This document shows positions 6,105 to 14,393 of a stretch of 21,597 bases of DNA, piece by piece. The DNA comes from a virus. The stretch's first letter is position 1, and every line of letters starts with the position of its first letter. The position numbers and the translations under genes are program-made. The stretch lies in IMG/VR virus record IMGVR_UViG_3300042308_000860, positions 1-21,597 of that record; one strand, 5' to 3'. The notes below the pieces were generated by a model that was not told the origin of the DNA, made no database searches, and worked only from the letters and a program-made list of their open reading frames with translations.

Positions 6105-6136
6105 TTTGGCAGAATGAAATAAATTTCGTATATTAC
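6105..6136 (+). promoter_or_regulatory. Promoter of the extended TTTGG family
   Basis: TTTG at 6105-6108 and TATATTAC at 6129-6136 are 20 nt apart. The sequence just before the -7 box (AAATTTCG) resembles the AATTTGTCG found in the same place at 8741 and 16800. It lies between the terminator and ATG 6152 and so drives the second unit. Confidence 0.75.
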
Positions 6137-13256: not shown

Positions 13257-13463
13257 TAGTGTTAATTTGTGGGTGAAAGTGGTAAATTGTGTTAAAGAGT
13301 GTCAAAAGTTTTTATGTATCATTATAAACTACTAACATACTAACACACTACATAAACGAACATATCAATAAAAGTATATCAAACGAAGTCAATGTATCCT
13401 GCACATCCACGCTTTGAAAGTATTTTTTTCCCCTATACGAAAATACACCGAAAAATTTTCTGT

Positions 13464-13598
13464 TGTAGCACGGACCTGGTAGAAAAATATTCTGTCAAAC
13501 CCTTACTGGCAGTGGATTGCACGGATTTGGTAAAGTGAATTTATTTTAGTCCTCCTCTGAAACTCATTGGTGGCAAGGGTTTGACGGGTCCTGCTGTA
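13464..13598. repeat. Nested long inverted repeat / structured RNA candidate
   Basis: The inner arms GTCAAACCCTT (13494-13504) and AAGGGTTTGAC (13575-13585) are perfect 11-bp complements. Outside them TGTAGCA plus GGACC (13464-13470, 13472-13476) pairs with GGTCC plus TGCTGTA (13587-13598), allowing one bulged C and G-T wobbles. The arms enclose about 70 nt. A direct repeat GCACGGAYYTGGTARA occurs at 13468 and 13519, so the loop is itself related to one arm. Confidence 0.75.
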
Positions 13599-13645
13599 AT
13601 CAATTAATTCAAAGTTATTTTTTATTCAATTTTATACCCTTTTTA

Positions 13646-13899
13646 TAACTTACTGATAATCAATGAGTTACATAACTGACTGATTTTCAACGCTTTAGAG
13701 TGTTCTTATATAAGATATTATGTTAAATGGGTAACTTATTCAGTATCAACGAGTTATGCTCAAAAAGACATATAACTGATATTATGTTAAATCCCGGCCC
13801 GTAACTGGTTGATTTTCAATGAGTTATAACAGATTGATTCCTAATAACTTACACATAGTAAAAAAATATATGTGCAACTCGTTGATTGCCCATAAAAAC
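13646..13899. repeat. Cluster of 25-bp dyad repeats (iteron-like)
   Basis: Copies begin at 13646, 13673, 13732, 13802, 13827 and, more degenerate, 13875; a half copy starts near 13773. The consensus has half-sites TAACTNNTTGA and TCAAYGAGTTA separated by 2-3 nt; the half-sites are reverse complements of each other, so each copy is a dyad. The best copy is 13802-13826. The arrangement resembles initiator-binding iterons or operators of a dimeric regulator. Confidence 0.75.
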
Positions 13900-13923
13900 T
13901 TTTCAAAATAGTTTCAAAAAGCC

Positions 13924-13954
13924 ATTGCCAGGGTCCTAAATTGTCGTATCTTTG
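13924..13954 (+). promoter_or_regulatory. Promoter with perfect TAnnTTTG box
   Basis: TATCTTTG at 13947-13954 fits the consensus exactly; ATTG at 13924-13927 is a 19-nt-spaced -33 candidate, though it lacks the full TTTG. The nonamer before the box (TTGTCGTAT) is shared with the promoters at 8726 and 16785. It lies just downstream of the dyad-repeat cluster. Confidence 0.6.
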
Positions 13955-14018
13955 GGTATATCCCAACAATGAGGGGAGTATATATAAAATTTTTCTAATA
14001 TCTAAAATTGTAAAGAAT

Positions 14019-14393
14019 ATGAATAACTACAAAACAAACGAATTTAACCAATATACGGAAGTCGCGTATAATACATCTCGTAACGAAAAACCTCAATATC
14101 GTAATTTCGCGGGTAGTAAGTTTAACATACCTACTAAACCAAATTCAATTGTAGAGTTTAAGGATTTTATGGGTAGAGTCCATAAAGTTTCAGTTAAGAA
14201 TAATACTGAATTGAAAAAACAAATGAAGTTTTTCGCTGAGTTGAAAAAAGAGTCTTTGACTATTTCACAAATTATTTCATCTTATCCTATTAGTATGGGT
14301 AAAGTAGAAAAGAAGTTTATTAGTCAATGTCGTAAAGAGTTGAAACAAACTTTAGGTTTGTCAAAACGAGCTATTGATATAGTGTTAGGTTAA
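14019..14393 (+). CDS. Hypothetical protein (124 aa)
   Basis: The frame is open from 13941, but that stretch contains the promoter, so ATG 14019 (MNNYKTNEFNQYTEVAYNTS) is taken; the 12-nt leader AAAATTGTAAAG before it recurs exactly before the next gene. The N-terminal 70 residues are polar with a strand motif (SIVEFKDFMGRVHKVSVKN). The C-terminal half is basic and helical (KKFISQCRKELKQTLGLSKR), perhaps a helix-turn-helix-like DNA-contact part. No family is recognised. Its stop codon lies in the loop of a terminator hairpin. Confidence 0.75.
   Translation: MNNYKTNEFNQYTEVAYNTSRNEKPQYRNFAGSKFNIPTKPNSIVEFKDFMGRVHKVSVKNNTELKKQMKFFAELKKESLTISQIISSYPISMGKVEKKFISQCRKELKQTLGLSKRAIDIVLG

Follow-up and report, generated by a model that had tools for sequence, protein, structure and literature searches.

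The window analysed here is the whole 21,597-base stretch of a 21.6-kb virus record, which is probably a fragment. Its intergenic region 13257–14018 contains all four copies of a 25-bp inverted repeat (dyad) of the pattern TAACTNNTTGA-NNN-TCAANNAGTTA, with 18 fixed bases, and is followed by a gene for a 124-aa protein. Dyads in the window were called by scoring against the consensus TAACTNNTTGANNNTCAANNAGTTA with a cut-off of three or fewer mismatches. The features of the locus are as follows.

13646–13670, unstranded: dyad 1, TAACTTACTGATAATCAATGAGTTA, with one mismatch to the 18 fixed bases and counterparts in relatives.
13673–13697, unstranded: dyad 2, TAACTGACTGATTTTCAACGCTTTA, with three mismatches and a degenerate right arm.
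13707–13728, + strand: second direct repeat, copy 1, TATATAAGATATTATGTTAAAT, with a final 11 bases identical to the right arm of E. coli dif.
13732–13756, unstranded: dyad 3, TAACTTATTCAGTATCAACGAGTTA, with one mismatch, 59 bp from dyad 2, a spacing kept in relatives.
13771–13792, + strand: second direct repeat, copy 2, TATAACTGATATTATGTTAAAT, 64 bp from copy 1.
13802–13826, unstranded: dyad 4, TAACTGGTTGATTTTCAATGAGTTA, the exact consensus (0 mismatches), 70 bp from dyad 3, a spacing kept in relatives.
13827–13851, unstranded: degenerate dyad abutting dyad 4, with four mismatches and the left half TAACAGATTGA.
13875–13885, + strand: a lone half-site, CAACTCGTTGA, which recurs in relatives and, in a sister phage, ahead of the GP88 homologue.
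13923–13954, + strand: Bacteroidetes-type promoter, CATTG (13923–13927)-N19-TATCTTTG (13947–13954), with a poor −33 element.
14019–14393, + strand: 124-aa gene downstream of the cluster, with no match in PHROGs and none above the curated cut-off in Pfam.

No further dyad with three or fewer mismatches was found in the 21,597-base window. Order-1 shuffles (30 trials) gave 0.07 matches per 21.6 kb at exactly three mismatches and zero with fewer, and a second-order Markov model gave 0.02 dyads per window at the same cut-off, with two dyads within 200 bp in 0 of 100 simulations. The background at exactly four mismatches was 0.43 per window, and the copy at 13827 has four, with a good left half only. 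The initial annotation had counted six or more 25-bp copies. Four of these stand as dyads (13646, 13673, 13732 and 13802), and the cluster is described here as four dyads, one degenerate copy and one half-site because the copy at 13827 has four mismatches and that at 13875 is a single half-site. The start-to-start spacing of the four dyads is irregular (27, 59 and 70 bp), as had been noted, and thus differs from the regularly spaced direct repeats of a CRISPR array. Rfam and tRNA searches of the window returned no match. Upstream of the dyads, at 13494–13585, lies a 28-nt inverted repeat of the GCAANCC...GGNTTGC type with 71 % complementarity, and hairpin-like pieces similar to it occur, with variation, in relatives.

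A promoter had been proposed just after the cluster, at 13924, and this is supported by comparison with the Bacteroidetes −33/−7 consensus, TTTG/TAnnTTTG (PMC2483708), to which the CATTG element and, 19 bases further on, TATCTTTG correspond. Further promoters of the form TTTGG-N19-TANNTT are present in the window at 6105, 8726, 16785 and 20794, all without dyads. The 124-aa protein encoded downstream is basic and conserved. Since its AlphaFold model has low confidence (mean pLDDT 63), regulation of its own gene by this protein is only a possibility. Small basic proteins common to the clade are candidates for the regulator.

In IMG/VR, 17 loci are related to the 124-aa gene; one of them (L138) is practically the same virus and several are near-identical to each other. 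Dyads lie at the same place upstream of the gene in the related loci for which upstream DNA was available. The 59- and 70-bp spacings (the latter 70 or 71) are kept in 11 loci, several of them near-identical, and in a divergent phage (L012) whose homologue of the 124-aa protein is 34 % identical. Four loci (L131, L133, L135 and L136) keep the dyads in a different arrangement and lack the 22-bp repeats. By their baseplate protein, Microcystis phage Mel-JY01 and Flavobacterium phage immuto are the nearest relatives with annotation; the first has a single dyad and the second none. Measured against the conditions set in the initial annotation, the outcome is split: relatives have the motif at the syntenic position, and other intergenic regions contain it as well.

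A 116,680-base sister record (G001) has dyads at five places, before the 124-aa gene, a GP88 (PF17338) homologue, a MoxR-type AAA protein, a 764-aa protein and a short ORF. Across the clade the dyads are located after a stop codon and before a promoter TTTGG-N19-TANNTT, and they stand upstream of orthologous genes in different phages. In scans of the whole of IMG/VR, 46 stretches had the order dyad-then-promoter and two the reverse (binomial p 8e-12, which is optimistic, as are the other p-values given here, because contigs are related and the IMG/VR matches are probably mostly from one clade). In eleven clade contigs the counts were 51 and 3, with about 2.9 expected for each. In placement, the dyads thus have the properties of an operator region: multiple inverted-repeat sites near a promoter and the same site at several promoters.

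Distances from dyad centre to TTTGG fell into discrete clusters, at 20–21, 26–27, 31–32, 37, 40–44 and 53–54 bp. They followed a period of 5.25–5.5 bp (about 5.4; R about 0.7, n=30). When each combination of gene family and distance was counted once, R was 0.62–0.64 at 5.25, 10.5 and 11 bp (p about 5e-4, n=19), so that phasing by a half turn is hard to tell from phasing by a full turn. The TTTGG form of the −33 element was found at one of seven clusters with three or more dyads vs 29 of 37 others (Fisher p 0.002, from a post hoc hand count).

The symmetry of the 25-mer could reflect either a site in duplex DNA or a hairpin. Watson–Crick pairing between the arms was equal to or below that expected from independent columns in three sets of sequences (the bacterial metagenome-assembled genome described below, viruses with 50-bp doublets, and this phage family). 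An RNA or single-stranded DNA hairpin was rejected on this lack of compensatory covariation. Because the arms do not covary, a duplex-DNA site for a protein is favoured, and its symmetry suggests that the protein would bind as a dimer. The earlier proposal of a multi-operator for a symmetric dimer therefore gains support from the independent evolution of the arms, from synteny in relatives and from dyads upstream of other phage promoters.

Taken with this evidence, the cluster is probably a multi-site upstream operator for a putative regulator, itself probably an activator, that controls the 124-aa gene (14019–14393). Several dimers bound within 13646–13900 would act on the host-type promoter at 13923–13954 with its poor −33 element, and they would most likely be activators helping host RNA polymerase. 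The same protein may control a set of operons in the clade, including those of the GP88 homologue, the MoxR-type AAA ATPase, the 764-aa protein, a HAD-like protein and others, since a dyad of this kind stands close before the promoters of orthologous genes. Sequence by itself thereby gives a candidate virus-wide regulon for a clade of large uncultured Bacteroidota-type phages, in which the exact sites, the target genes and the class of promoter can be named.

Class I activators such as CRP bind palindromic sites at a few preferred upstream distances that are phased by one helical turn. The phage dyads likewise have preferred distances; their period of about half a turn is unlike a classical class I activator and counts against the operator model, as does the fact that not every dyad of the window cluster is in phase with the promoter. 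No regulator gene for the dyads was identified, and this also counts against it. Another parallel is phi29 p4, a phage dimer that binds several imperfect inverted repeats, CTTTTT-N15-AAAATG, between promoters A2c and A3, upstream of a promoter with a poor −35 element (PMC3100819). We infer both the regulatory protein and the sign of its action here, activation as by p4 at promoter A3 being most likely. The dyad differs from the p4 site in being another palindrome, of 25 bp, with a putative binding protein, and in recurring at many operons. In phage Mu, Mor binds an inverted repeat as a dimer and activates the middle promoter Pm, which host RNA polymerase uses (PMC4390567). The 16-bp element bound by Mor has its centre at −43.5; the centres of the nearest dyads here lie further upstream, and there can be several dyads.

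The same dimeric protein could instead silence promoters from upstream, for example by looping between dyads, and multiple spaced dyads with conserved geometry would suit this. However, the nearest dyad is mostly centred 20–54 bp upstream of the −33 element with no overlap of −33/−7, and poor −33 elements at multi-dyad promoters suit activation better, so that repression appears unlikely. Dyads might also act as insulators or termination-linked sites, where readthrough out of the gene ahead of them is stopped or processed before it reaches the next promoter. They are often close behind a stop codon, some lie inside terminator-like inverted repeats, and in some bacteria they occur 11–14 bp beyond the 3′ ends of tRNA genes (seven loci: L151, L158, L215, L231, L245, L247 and L249) and also, in many cases, between convergent genes. 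Against this, the arms lack covariation, the distances to the promoter are discrete, and G003 has a separate terminator-like hairpin ahead of its five dyads; we regard such a function as distinctly unlikely.

Two further explanations start from the repeats themselves. The initial annotation had suggested a candidate origin, and clustered repeats in the largest non-coding region, which is A+T-rich and has conserved geometry and a second direct repeat, would fit a replication origin or iteron-like initiator array. The same phages, however, have dyads at several other intergenic loci unrelated to this one, and among the neighbouring genes that were searched none was recognised as a replication gene, most ORFs being without assignment. 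GC skew falls steadily through the cluster without a switch, a test weakened because nearly all genes run in one direction and because the records are possibly fragmentary. On these three grounds an origin is less likely than an operator; the suggestion is not supported, and we consider it very improbable. Recurrence of the site before many promoters suggests a virus-wide control circuit, a start of replication being improbable. The 22-bp direct repeat, which sits between the dyads and was overlooked previously, raises the question of a Xer/dif-type resolution or attachment site in which the 22-bp copies are recombinase sites and the dyads accessory sites. Both copies contain the exact right arm of E. 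coli dif, TTATGTTAAAT (PMC3025954), and most relatives retain it with the 64-bp spacing. The left arms, on the other hand, match at 5–6 of 11 positions, which is chance level, and over all 28 positions the two copies score 20 and 19, compared with 19 at an unrelated site elsewhere in the window. A dif site was rejected since the 28-bp XerC-spacer-XerD match is not above the window background, and attachment by a tyrosine recombinase since Phage_integrase (PF00589) has no match in 11 phage records. The four loci that have dyads without 22-bp repeats also speak against this explanation, which is the most improbable of those considered. The upstream operator remains the preferred reading of the cluster.

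The dyad is not confined to phages. A Microscillaceae metagenome-assembled genome, Prado074 (G012, comprising L140 and related loci), has 2,479 dyads at two or fewer mismatches, compared with four for a reversed-pattern control, or about one per 2.7 kb; in the part read they were mostly intergenic and their flanks were varied. At this threshold two other bacteria have 83 and 105 dyads (controls 0). Promoter association is absent in the Microscillaceae genome, with four vs four by order. A general Bacteroidota site was rejected, as the dyad at one or fewer mismatches occurs in only 4 of 118 genomes. Interspersed, intergenic, high-copy palindromes of this kind resemble REP palindromes with RAYT transposases (PMC3733652); the phage dyads, unlike REP, are tied to promoters. 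A REP/RAYT relationship was rejected: none of 12 Y1_Tnp loci had a dyad at two or fewer mismatches, and no Y1_Tnp was present in the genome with 83 dyads. Y1_Tnp was likewise not found in phage G001. A full-text literature search with the half-site letters returned one unrelated plant paper only, and topic searches, at the level of titles and abstract openings, gave no match for this palindrome in phages. It is a tentative and rather doubtful idea that one protein family reads the 25-bp palindrome both in phages and in dyad-rich bacteria, the phages using a chromosome-wide host DNA-binding protein, with thousands of sites in the Microscillaceae genome, to regulate many of their promoters. If one protein does bind the phage 25-mer and the thousands of bacterial dyads, it would suggest that a DNA-binding protein acting across the chromosome has so far gone undescribed.

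Dyads are also arranged as doublets exactly 50 bp apart in 39 of 120 viral loci (including L033, L035, L036, L075, L097 and L107). In the examples read these flank a GC-rich 25-mer, and they repeat every 0.3–2 kb between genes, resembling a cassette array. Profile and motif searches placed a recombinase beside a dyad in two of the fetched loci only. In both, from two Cytophagales-type genomes, 85 bp separate a perfect dyad (L150, 5574; L174, 3248) from the reading frame for a tyrosine recombinase.
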